Of a DNA stretch of 64,000 nucleotides, positions 35,611-41,922 are shown piece by piece. Source of the DNA: Chloroflexota bacterium (lineage in GTDB: Bacteria; Chloroflexota; Anaerolineae; Anaerolineales; Villigracilaceae); contig JACPYX010000007.1 in NCBI GenBank assembly GCA_016195815.1, forward strand, positions 62,001 through 126,000. Reading direction: 5' to 3'. The position numbers were made by a program, and so were the translations under genes. Under the pieces are notes generated by a model. The model did no database searches. It was not told the origin of the DNA and saw only the letters and a program-made list of their open reading frames with translations. Each line of letters opens with the position of its first letter. Position 1 is the first letter of the stretch.

Positions 35611-36276
35611 ATGAAATGGTTTTTCACATCTTTGATTGTGATTGCCCTGGTCTCCTCTGCTTGCAGCCCGGGCGTTCCTGCGCAATCCGATCTGTCCACC
35701 CCGGTGATTGACACGACATCCTATCCAACCATGTTGTCTCCGCAGTCTAACGCCAGCCAATCGGTCAGCGGATATATTGTAAATCTTCAGCGCGCCTGGC
35801 GCGATGGAAAGCAGGTCTATGCCGACGTTTGCTTTACGCTTCCAGATGCGTCCGATTGGACAATATGGAATGCGAACTTTGTGTATGGCGGGCAGGCGCT
35901 CTCTGAATTTAGTTTGTCCATGTTGAGCAATCAACCCGCCACCAACGGTCAGCCCGCTCAACGCTGCGATGAGTTAAGCTTTTACGTCCCGCCTGATGCG
36001 GATCTCTCCGCTGCTTCTTTGACGATCGAATCATTGGGGGCGCCGCCGAGCGAAGGGGAATATTGTTCGCTATACATGCCAAAGATACAGGAGGCATTAA
36101 ACCAACGCGGACTTGGCATTACCCTCGGCTGTGTGGAAGTAAATGGAGTGTTGACCATGCAGATCGTGGGGAAACCCGATAACATGTCTCGGGACGAAGC
36201 AGAACAAGCCGTCTTCAGCGATGAATTTTATACCGTCAAAGGCCCGTGGACTTTCCAGGTCAGCCTCGGGCAGTAA
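35611..36276 (+). CDS. Putative lipoprotein
   Basis: 221-residue protein with a lipoprotein signal peptide: a basic/aromatic start (MKWFF), hydrophobic LIVIALV and lipobox SSAC with the modified Cys at position 18. A Ser/Thr/Pro-rich stretch follows, then a beta-rich domain of unknown family with three further cysteines. It is expected to be anchored on the outside of the cytoplasmic membrane. AAGGAG precedes the ATG. It is the gene just before the tyrS leader. Function not recognised. Confidence 0.72.
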   Translation: MKWFFTSLIVIALVSSACSPGVPAQSDLSTPVIDTTSYPTMLSPQSNASQSVSGYIVNLQRAWRDGKQVYADVCFTLPDASDWTIWNANFVYGGQALSEFSLSMLSNQPATNGQPAQRCDELSFYVPPDADLSAASLTIESLGAPPSEGEYCSLYMPKIQEALNQRGLGITLGCVEVNGVLTMQIVGKPDNMSRDEAEQAVFSDEFYTVKGPWTFQVSLGQ

Positions 36277-36282
36277 GTTTGG

Positions 36283-36288
36283 TATAAT
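36283..36288 (+). promoter_or_regulatory. -10 box of the tyrS transcript
   Basis: TATAAT, with the last T seven bases before 36295. This would place +1 on the A of the leader-peptide ATG. No good -35 is seen. Confidence 0.6.
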
Positions 36289-36294
36289 GCGGCC

Positions 36295-36339
36295 ATGTTT
36301 ATTCACCGTCCTTTCTCGTACTATTATTCCCGCGCATGA
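36295..36339 (+). CDS. Candidate tyrS leader peptide, three consecutive Tyr codons
   Basis: A 14-codon open frame reads MFIHRPFSYYYSRA and stops at TGA 36337. Codons 9-11 are TAC TAT TAT (36319-36327). It begins about where transcription should begin, lacks a Shine-Dalgarno site, and is followed by overlapping hairpins and a T-run terminator, then tyrS 77 bp after its stop codon. This is the form of a transcription-attenuation leader: scarce charged tRNA-Tyr stalls the ribosome on the Tyr run and frees the antiterminator. It is too short for homology evidence; the call rests on composition and context. Confidence 0.68.
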   Translation: MFIHRPFSYYYSRA

Positions 36340-36384
36340 TCTCTTGTGAGGGAATCTTGACGCGCCCTCGCGGGCGCGTTTTTA
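36326..36384 (+). promoter_or_regulatory. Attenuator of tyrS: competing hairpins and terminator
   Basis: Three mutually exclusive pairings are visible. 1:2 pairs ATTCCC (36326-36331, starting inside the last Tyr codon) with GGGAAT (36350-36355). 2:3, the antiterminator, pairs 36346-36352 with 36365-36371 (7 bp, one G-U). 3:4, the terminator, pairs CGCGCCC (36361-36367) with GGGCGCG (36372-36378), followed by TTTTTATTT. A ribosome stalled on Tyr codons 36319-36327 would cover segment 1 and favour 2:3. No T-box sequence is seen. Confidence 0.68.
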
Positions 36385-36416
36385 TTTGTCATCGTTTGGA
36401 TTTTTGAGGAGGCAGT

Positions 36417-37628
36417 ATGAATATTGATCAGCAGGTCGAACTTTTGATGCAAGGCACTGAATATGGCGATGATGACTTGAAAAAAGCCATGGCAACCGAA
36501 CTTCGCCAGCGGCTGATGGAAGCAGAGAAAGAGAAACGTCCGCTGCGCGTGTATTGCGGCTACGATCCCACATCAAAAGATTTGCATCTGGGACACACGA
36601 TTACCATGCGGAAACTGCGCCAGTTTCAGGAGCTGGGTCACGAGGTGACTTTTTTAATTGGAAGTTACACCGCACTGGTGGGCGATCCTTCGGATAAAAA
36701 TAAAGCGCGTCCGGTCCTGACCCTGGAGCAGGTCTCCGAAAATGCCAAGACCTACACCGAACAGGCTTTTCGGGTGCTCGACCGCGCGAAGACGAAAGTT
36801 CGTTACAACGGCGAATGGTTGAGCGAGCTTTCGCTGGTTGACTTGATCAAGCTGGGCCAGAATTTTACGGTGCAGCAATTTTTGGCGCGCGAAAACTTTG
36901 CAAAGCGGTTGGAGAAGGATGAGCCAATTTACCTGCATGAAACTTTTTATGCCTTGATGCAGGGTTACGATGCCGTTGCAATGCAGACCGATGTGCAAGT
37001 CGGCGGCACGGATCAGTTGTTCAACATTATTGTGGCCGGGCGCAAGCTGCAGGAAGCCATGGGGCAGAAACCGCTGGTGGGTGTGATCTGCGGCATCCTG
37101 CCCGGCACGGACGGCGTCCAGCGCATGTCCAAGTCCACGGGCAATATCGTGCCGATCAATAGCGGCGCGGAAGATATGTATGGCAAGCTGATGTCTATGC
37201 CAGATTTTGCGATGGAAAAATATATGCAGCTTGTAACGCGCTGGCCGCCGAATGAGATTGATGCGCTGCTCAAGGCATTAGAGTCGGGCAATATCCATCC
37301 GCGCGATGCCAAGATGAAGCTGGCGCGCGAGATCGTCAGTATTTTCTATGGCGAGGCGGAGGCTGGGCCGGCGGAAGAATCGTTCGTGAAATTATTCCAA
37401 CAGAAGGAGGTGCCGGACGAGATGCCTGAGTTCGCGCTTCAGCCGGGGATGACGGTCATGGATGTTTTAACGGGGGCCGCTTTGGTGTCCAGCAAGAGCG
37501 AGGCCAAACGTCTGATTGACCAAAAGGGTATCCGTTTGGATGGCGATGCGCTGGAACGCGGTGATGTCCTGTTTCCACACCCCGGCGTGTTACAGGCAGG
37601 CAAACGCCGATTTGTAAGGGTCAAGTAG
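36417..37628 (+). CDS. tyrS: Tyrosyl-tRNA synthetase
   Basis: 403-residue class Ic synthetase that charges tRNA-Tyr. The ATP-binding HIGH-type motif is HLGH (57-60) in GYDPTSKDLHLGH; the KMSKS-type loop is RMSKS (236-240). A C-terminal S4-like domain (about 340-400, LVSSKSEAKRLIDQKGIRLDG) contacts the tRNA. GAGGAGG precedes ATG 36417. Expression is probably controlled by the leader peptide and attenuator at 36295-36384. A bidirectional terminator follows. Confidence 0.95.
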   Translation: MNIDQQVELLMQGTEYGDDDLKKAMATELRQRLMEAEKEKRPLRVYCGYDPTSKDLHLGHTITMRKLRQFQELGHEVTFLIGSYTALVGDPSDKNKARPVLTLEQVSENAKTYTEQAFRVLDRAKTKVRYNGEWLSELSLVDLIKLGQNFTVQQFLARENFAKRLEKDEPIYLHETFYALMQGYDAVAMQTDVQVGGTDQLFNIIVAGRKLQEAMGQKPLVGVICGILPGTDGVQRMSKSTGNIVPINSGAEDMYGKLMSMPDFAMEKYMQLVTRWPPNEIDALLKALESGNIHPRDAKMKLAREIVSIFYGEAEAGPAEESFVKLFQQKEVPDEMPEFALQPGMTVMDVLTGAALVSSKSEAKRLIDQKGIRLDGDALERGDVLFPHPGVLQAGKRRFVRVK

Positions 37629-41607: not shown

Positions 41608-41678
41608 AGGCGTCGACGGGATTCGGACCCGTGATCAGGGTTTTGCAGACCCTTGCCTTACCACTTGGCCACGACGCC
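41608..41678 (-). tRNA. tRNA-Cys (anticodon GCA)
   Basis: 71-nt cloverleaf; acceptor GGCGTCG/CGACGCC, anticodon loop CTGCAAA in stem AGGGT/ACCCT, T arm GGGTCCGAATCCC. CCA is not encoded. Third gene of the Phe-Gly-Cys row. Confidence 0.95.
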
Positions 41679-41693
41679 ATATCTTTATTATAA

Positions 41694-41742
41694 ATTGAGG
41701 ACTGCTGATTGACAATCCAATCATCAATCTGCAATCCTCAAT
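41694..41742. repeat. Inverted repeat between tRNA-Cys and tRNA-Gly
   Basis: ATTGAGGA (41694-41701) and TCCTCAAT (41735-41742) with further partly paired TGATTG/CAATCA inside. It would be cut out as the tRNA precursor is processed; function unclear. Confidence 0.5.
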
Positions 41743-41748
41743 CATTTG

Positions 41749-41820
41749 AGCGGGCGATGGGATTCGAACCCACGACCTTCTCCTTGGCAAGGAGACGTAC
41801 TACCACTGTACTACGCCCGC
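41749..41820 (-). tRNA. tRNA-Gly (anticodon GCC)
   Basis: 72-nt cloverleaf; acceptor GCGGGCG/CGCCCGC, anticodon loop TTGCCAA in stem CTCCT/AGGAG, T arm GGGTTCGAATCCC. CCA is not encoded. Confidence 0.95.
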
Positions 41821-41849
41821 GTTTCCCTGGCTAAACTTTCAGCCGAGAG

Positions 41850-41922
41850 TGCCGAGACCCAGGATCGAACTGGGGACACCGCGATTTTCAGTCGCGTGCT
41901 CTACCAACTGAGCTATCTCGGC
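41850..41922 (-). tRNA. tRNA-Phe (anticodon GAA)
   Basis: 73-nt cloverleaf; acceptor GCCGAGA/TCTCGGC, D arm TAGCTCAGTTGGTAGAGC, anticodon loop CTGAAAA in stem GCGA/TCGC, T arm CCAGTTCGATCCTGG. First gene of the three-tRNA unit. Confidence 0.95.

Follow-up and report, generated by a model that had tools for sequence, protein, structure and literature searches.

The pheST attenuator of Escherichia coli uses the pheM leader peptide. Ribosome-mediated attenuators are also described for trpS and leuS of Streptomyces (PMC1262725); in Actinobacteria, that paper reports no conserved RNA structure upstream of operons for tyrosine, for which it names T-boxes elsewhere. The ribosome-mediated attenuator of Sinorhizobium meliloti trpLE(G) has a 14-residue leader whose ATG is the 5′ end of the RNA (PMC7298713), and at E. 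coli rph-pyrE an attenuator between the cistrons is linked to translation that reaches the end of the real gene upstream (PMC2784333). Bacillus subtilis tyrS carries a T-box, through which the charging of tRNA-Tyr sets termination or antitermination (PMC2494555), and T-boxes have been described in Chloroflexi (PMC3766115; PMC2494555). Rfam lists amino-acid attenuators for His, Leu, Thr and Trp, and others, for Ile/Val and Phe, are known outside it (PMC3766115). Among the papers searched, no title or opening of an abstract reports a leader with Tyr codons upstream of tyrS, or attenuators of this type in Anaerolineae; the Lopatovskaya 2010 survey (cited in PMC4833913) possibly mentions one.

Here the region upstream of tyrS was analysed in a 64-kb stretch of Chloroflexota DNA (referred to below as the window) and in relatives of its source genome. 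The comparison makes it very likely that this tyrS is under a ribosome-mediated transcription attenuator of the trp/pheST type, which would read the supply of Tyr-tRNA.

Anatomy and folding of the tyrS leader

The features of the locus are listed in Table 1. The TATAAT hexamer, the 14-codon frame with TAC TAT TAT and the start of tyrS were read directly where the sequence-only reading had placed them. As in classical attenuators, the short leader frame, which is predicted, is rich in the relevant codons (three for Tyr), and an intrinsic terminator precedes the start of a gene for Tyr metabolism. The gap between the end of TATAAT and the leader ATG was 6 nt. A gap of this size after the -10 element places the usual transcription start on the A of the ATG, and with this promoter geometry the leader mRNA would be leaderless; the Tyr leader is thus probably translated from leaderless mRNA, with a start site that we infer from the gap.

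Table 1. Features of the tyrS leader region, in window coordinates
Feature	Position	Strand	Evidence
Extended -10 promoter element TGGTATAAT (TATAAT at 36283-36288, TGG just 5′)	36280..36288	+	read from sequence; predicted
Leader peptide MFIHRPFSYYYSRA, 14 codons, predicted (ATG 36295; stop TGA 36337-36339)	36295..36339	+	read directly; relatives
Regulatory Tyr codons TAC TAT TAT	36319..36327	+	read directly
1:2 protector hairpin (36326-36331 with 36350-36355, plus inner 4 bp)	36326..36355	+	MFE fold; swap test
2:3 antiterminator (36343-36352 with 36365-36374, 10 bp)	36343..36374	+	nascent folds
3:4 intrinsic terminator (hairpin 36359-36380; stem of 9 bp, 36359-36367 with 36372-36380; T-rich tail to 36387)	36359..36387	+	read directly; folds
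T-rich tail of terminator	36379-36387	+	read directly
Shine-Dalgarno-like GAGGAGG of tyrS	36406..36412	+	read directly
tyrS, tyrosyl-tRNA synthetase, 403 aa, controlled gene (ATG 36417)	36417..37628	+	Pfam tRNA-synt_1b, E 4.8e-69

Region 36295-36390 folded at -30.3 kcal/mol (z -3.8), a value as good as which was obtained in 0 of 200 shuffles. The two strands of the window hold 619 ATG-initiated frames of 10-30 codons, and the MFIHRPFSYYYSRA frame alone combined a triplet run or a nearby -10 element with a strong downstream terminator. A consensus scan gave no sigma-70 -35/-10 pair at the leader site, and the terminator count of the leader region, 7, was within reach of shuffled sequences (mean 4.3, sd 3.0); the case for the leader element therefore rests on conservation. 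With conservation included (see below), the observation made in the window, a Tyr frame and mutually exclusive pairings with a terminator before tyrS, is confirmed and is not a product of chance. Three clustered tRNA genes were also seen in the window (41608-41922, minus strand).

The pairings proposed by the sequence-only reading were recovered, in part longer than claimed. The 1:2 pairing was found in the minimum free energy fold together with the inner 4 bp, and segment 1 begins inside the last Tyr codon, as had been said. The 2:3 core (36346-36352 with 36365-36371) extends to 10 bp and the GC stem given for 3:4 (36361-36367 with 36372-36378) to 9 bp. Folding of the nascent RNA yielded the three states of a classical attenuator. 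When the RNA was free from 36340, as with a ribosome stalled on Tyr, the antiterminator held until 36376; when it was free only from 36350, as with a ribosome on the stop codon, 3:4 formed alone; and with the ribosome left out, 1:2 formed and then 3:4. Mutually exclusive 1:2, 2:3 and 3:4 pairings, in which stalling would free segment 2, were thus found in the folds, with covariation as further evidence for 2:3 and 3:4 and the swap test for 1:2. The antiterminator had an energy of -14.1 kcal/mol and the fully transcribed terminator one of -20.5 kcal/mol; because the terminator is the more stable once complete, the choice made by the switch must be kinetic. Known attenuators likewise switch kinetically.

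From this anatomy, and from the conservation and covariation described below, we infer a transcription start, ribosome stalling and a response to tyrosine as follows. Transcription would probably begin at the first base of the leader ATG, and a ribosome would load on the leaderless mRNA and trail the RNA polymerase. With charged Tyr-tRNA in short supply, the ribosome would stall on the Tyr run and cover segment 1, whereupon 2:3 would pair, the terminator would be blocked and tyrS would be transcribed. With ample Tyr-tRNA, the ribosome would run three codons to the stop and cover the start of segment 2, and 3:4 would form; the extent of this blocking by a terminating ribosome is an estimate, since segment 2 begins, by its first column, 4-8 nt beyond the stop codon in the 52 aligned leaders. 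With no ribosome present, 1:2 and 3:4 would both form and transcription would also end. Ribosome-mediated attenuation by Tyr-tRNA, as the sequence-only reading had proposed, is supported by the conserved Tyr codons, their spacing, the compensatory changes and the result that no T-box was found.

Conservation and covariation in relatives

Of 120 genomes sampled from the same family, 110 gave a tyrS match. The same-family set consisted of 110 loci, from 109 genomes and a second copy in one of them; one genome, with a C-terminal fragment only, was omitted. Another 60 loci from other families of the order and 40 from the rest of the class were chosen by hand from the search matches, favouring loci with an intact N-terminus and a broad range of families; two of the latter align only from residue 29, which leaves their real start uncertain, and the same holds for several of 20 loci from outside the class. 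Most of the named relatives are metagenome assemblies. A locus was scored positive when at least two Tyr codons lay in the last nine codons before a stop and a terminator started 3-75 nt further on. By this joint rule, 96 of the 110 same-family loci were positive, as were 28 of 60 in other families of the order and 4 of 40 in the rest of the class, a few being doubtful yet counted (L221, which lies by a tRNA gene, and L218 among the 28; L253 among the 4). The 14 same-family failures included one locus with only 30 nt upstream and one at a contig end that shows YYPAFS and a terminator. L064 has a Tyr tail without a terminator, and L057 has YY far from the stop and no terminator. The element was absent in ten loci (L029, L045, L058, L063, L065, L069, L101, L103, L105 and L109), so it is dispensable.

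As an amino-acid control, doublets were counted in the last nine codons of frames ending just before a terminator, at loci with at least 120 nt upstream (L076 and L207 were too short). A terminator was found in 100 of 109 same-family loci, and the doublets there were Tyr in 89 of the 100, Leu in 9, Ile in 8 and Ser in 7. Other families of the order had a terminator in 39 of 59 loci, with Tyr doublets in 25 and Leu next with 6; the rest of the class had one in 18 of 39 loci, with 0 Tyr doublets. The 20 upstream regions from outside the class showed no clear Tyr doublet tail with a terminator. Among these, L371 has YY ten residues before the stop and a weak hairpin with a score of 17, below the threshold used, and L368 has a Tyr-rich frame ending MLFACYLPVARPLCYYRY about 90-150 nt before tyrS, where no terminator was found.

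Alignment of the regions upstream of tyrS, the comparison by which the attenuator was to be judged, showed that the Tyr codons and their spacing are kept and that compensatory changes occur in both antiterminator and terminator. Between the last Tyr codon and the stop lay exactly three codons in 78 of the 96 same-family positives and 20 of the 28 from the rest of the order. TATAAT with at most 1 mismatch stood 6-9 nt 5′ of an in-frame start in 90 of these 124 loci. The spacing was exactly 6 nt for 62 of them, and a length of 12-17 codons was seen for 87 of the 90 frames so preceded. Tyr was encoded by TAT 254 times and by TAC 89 times over the 124 loci, 72 of which use both; what is kept is therefore the amino acid and not one string of bases.

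Covariation was measured on 52 of 67 non-redundant same-family leaders; 12 gene-tail rows (see below) and L035, L048 and L060 were left out, so the results speak almost only for the short-leader form. The antiterminator was paired in 86.7% of cells vs 25-59% when slid. Cells changed on both sides numbered 71 vs 29.7 in shuffles, the covariation score was 0.477 vs 0.259, and three of five measures exceeded all 500 shuffles. The other two were reached more often: pairs changed on both sides (6 of 8 vs 4.6) in 84 of 500 shuffles, and pair types (17 vs 15.7 expected) in 136 of 500. For the terminator, 98.1% of cells were paired, 4 of 8 pairs changed on both sides, and the five measures beat every shuffle. 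Nascent folds of the 124 positive loci of the order joined segments 2 and 3 by 8.5 pairs on average, vs 6.2 with segment 2 shuffled, the own sequence being higher in 102, and by at least 6 pairs in 114. When segments were swapped between loci, mean pairing became weaker; the own 2:3 pairing was better in 102 of 124 and the own 1:2 pairing in 88 of 122. The 1:2 pairing, whose register shifts between clades, thus has the weaker support, through fold and swap test.

A covariance model searched against the own genome and 25 relatives gave 10 matches with E below 1e-6, all just upstream of tyrS; five of the ten genomes had supplied rows of the model. The search scored 150 of up to several thousand first-look candidates per genome, so that matches at tyrS only are no proof of uniqueness and further copies are possible. 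Weaker matches away from tyrS had E values of 3.7e-4 and above. Eleven of them were read, including L342 and L344, and none was taken for a Tyr leader. In one (L357, own genome, about 1440-1570), a frame with the C-terminus SYYTPET stops about 60 nt 5′ of a terminator, next to an apparent tRNA gene on the other strand; this is probably due to chance. Another, in a genome of the same genus (L359, about 1530-1600), is a terminator directly before an apparent isopropylmalate or homocitrate synthase gene, named by eye, and is perhaps another attenuator.

Different Tyr peptides were seen before tyrS elsewhere. Five loci from other families of the class (L270, L271, L275, L279 and L285) have a peptide ending Y-x-Y-x-S-G-L-stop, the last codons of which are mostly AGCGGATTGTAG and recur about 25-40 nt downstream as an inverted or almost inverted copy, CTACAATCCGCT; by the rule used here, a terminator follows in 3 of the 5. 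These are possibly a second, independent Tyr attenuator. YSYSxGG(D)YAP peptides with a T-tailed hairpin (AGCGTGGC...) were observed before tyrS at L255 and L278 (families f35 and f45), a possible third form.

Tyr codons at the end of an upstream membrane protein

Several genera of the same family, and families f6, f7, f8, f9, f12 and f14 of the order, carry the Tyr codons at the C-terminus of an upstream membrane protein of about 165-185 residues, in which PF10756 (bPH_6) scored over the cut-off in the one copy scanned. Its stop stands just before the same kind of antiterminator and terminator, and tyrS follows; tails include ...KGRYYYSRP, ...DGMVYYARA and ...EQYAYYSRA. Exactly three codons and the stop followed the Tyr run in 30 of 32 gene-tail rows, and in 28 of 32 the pairing of segments 2 and 3 was better than shuffled. 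Homologues of bPH_6 were found in 28 of 121 genomes of the order, and in 24 of these they lie immediately 5′ of tyrS on the same contig (coordinates compared by eye); none was found in the window's own genome.

The 57 distinct bPH_6 frames were classified automatically as having both terminator and YY (35), terminator only (5), YY only (1) or neither (16). L078 and L092, in which a separate leader lies between, and L304, with no tyrS downstream, were moved by hand to the class of frames that do not stand directly before the attenuator, and L208 was omitted as a truncated copy of L292. The corrected counts were 34, 2, 1 and 19 (Fisher p 9e-12, which overstates the case since the sequences are related); that is, the YY tail was kept in 34 of 36 bPH_6 frames directly before the attenuator vs 1 of 20 otherwise. 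On the bPH_6 tree YY changes 8 times. Among 6 independent pairs, the attenuator changed in step with YY in 4.9 on average and in no case against it, with a median p of 0.0625 in a test that can hardly reach 0.05 with so few pairs.

Seven loci (L073, L078, L082, L089, L090, L092 and L106) are intermediates. Their bPH_6 ends in YSR or similar with no Tyr doublet, and a separate Tyr leader lies behind it, with its own TATAAT 6-8 nt before the ATG in 7 of 7. The 80 named loci comprised 54 with the short leader, 15 with the gene tail, 3 with bPH_6 but no attenuator call, and 8 with none of these (one of which has 55 nt upstream). On the TyrS tree, 8 changes are required for the short form and 7 for the tail form, the direction not being fixed by these data, and one well-supported clade (100/99) holds both forms.

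On balance these observations favour the view that in Anaerolineae relatives the Tyr codons lie either in a stand-alone leaderless leader or in the tail of bPH_6, with the same geometry, and that lineages switch between the two, the intermediates having a doublet-free bPH_6 and, behind it, a separate promoter and leader. If true, selection for sensing tRNA charging would have shaped the tail of a working protein, and leader peptides that stand alone would arise by takeover from a gene tail, or the reverse. The alternation, with its intermediates and repeated switches, would offer a comparative route to how leader peptides arise.

Alternative explanations and comparison with known systems

Nascent-peptide arrest is known from the tnaC and erm leaders. 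Arrest here by the peptide sequence, for example at a final Pro, in place of codon-specific stalling, would fit the 46 of 92 positive rows outside the gene-tail set that end in Pro just before the stop. This explanation is nevertheless very unlikely, as the peptides vary widely outside the Tyr run, the residues before it are those of another protein in the gene-tail form, and the Pro codon lies within pairing segment 1, which gives another reason for its presence. The final Pro of the short leaders may slow release or serve the pairing of segment 1.

A metabolite riboswitch or a protein-binding attenuator could gate the same hairpins with the peptide being incidental, and two alternative folds are also typical of riboswitches. 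No aptamer-like core was apparent, however, in the element alignment, in which mean column identity was 58% and the invariant columns were those of the terminator with its tail. What is conserved is a Tyr run, in frame and in synonymous codons, at a fixed distance from the stop, a distance also kept in the quite different protein of the gene-tail rows, and this makes such gating less likely still than peptide arrest. Less credible again is a plain terminator belonging to the upstream gene, beside which a promoter and a Tyr-rich frame lie by chance. The upstream reading frame does end at 36276, about 80 nt 5′ of the hairpin, but the Tyr run, spacing, antiterminator and terminator recur across families, the antiterminator covaries though a plain terminator has no need of it, and the loss of conservation was not seen within the families of the order that carry the element.

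T-boxes are carried by B. subtilis tyrS (PMC2494555) and by pheS and thrS of the window's own genome (RF00230 above gathering score). A T-box that senses uncharged tRNA-Tyr directly at the window's tyrS is the least probable explanation of all, as Rfam gave no T-box at gathering score in the window or in L001, none at E up to 10 within 36200-36500, and none in the 20 of 40 other-class upstream regions searched or in the 20 from outside the class, and as the leader measures less than 100 nt from ATG to T tail vs 219 positions in the T-box model. The absence of a T-box core at tyrS noted by the sequence-only reading was thus borne out by the RF00230 search, and the 20 out-of-class regions gave no Rfam match of any kind at E 0.1. 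That reading had the attenuator anatomy right but missed the probable leaderless start, the gene-tail form and the T-boxes on other synthetase genes.

The pheS and thrS loci of the own genome with RF00230 are L319 and L326; L320, L321 and L327 were noted together with them. T-box-like TGGTACC or TGGCACC strings, below the Rfam threshold, were noticed by eye before other synthetase genes of this genome, and an FMN riboswitch lies near a synthetase gene (L320, 333-449, minus strand). With T-boxes at pheS and thrS and none at tyrS, one genome would use T-boxes for some synthetases and a leader peptide for tyrS, and so hold both kinds of sensor.

Among known systems, the T-box of B. subtilis tyrS shares the target gene and the tRNA-Tyr signal but, as described (PMC2494555), senses the tRNA with neither ribosome nor leader peptide. 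The bPH_6-tail form of the relatives resembles rph-pyrE by the position of a real gene's stop before the attenuator, the coupling here being putative; the signal given for rph-pyrE is the uracil/UTP pool (PMC2784333), whereas the bPH_6 tail would carry specific Tyr codons and an antiterminator. The leader of S. meliloti trpLE(G) likewise has 14 residues and is leaderless, as the tyrS leader probably is, with a 5′ end that is stated there (PMC7298713) and predicted here, but it serves Trp and a biosynthesis gene. Closest are E. coli pheST and Streptomyces trpS and leuS (PMC1262725), where a synthetase gene is attenuated through a leader rich in its own amino acid. In the anatomical features that can be tested on sequence, the tyrS locus is of this kind, and it would work in the same way. 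It differs from pheST, trpS and leuS in concerning tyrosine and tyrS, in lying in Chloroflexota, in having a probably leaderless leader and in alternating with a gene-tail form in relatives, and it would extend ribosome-mediated attenuation to tyrosine and tyrS, in a phylum for which T-boxes have been described.
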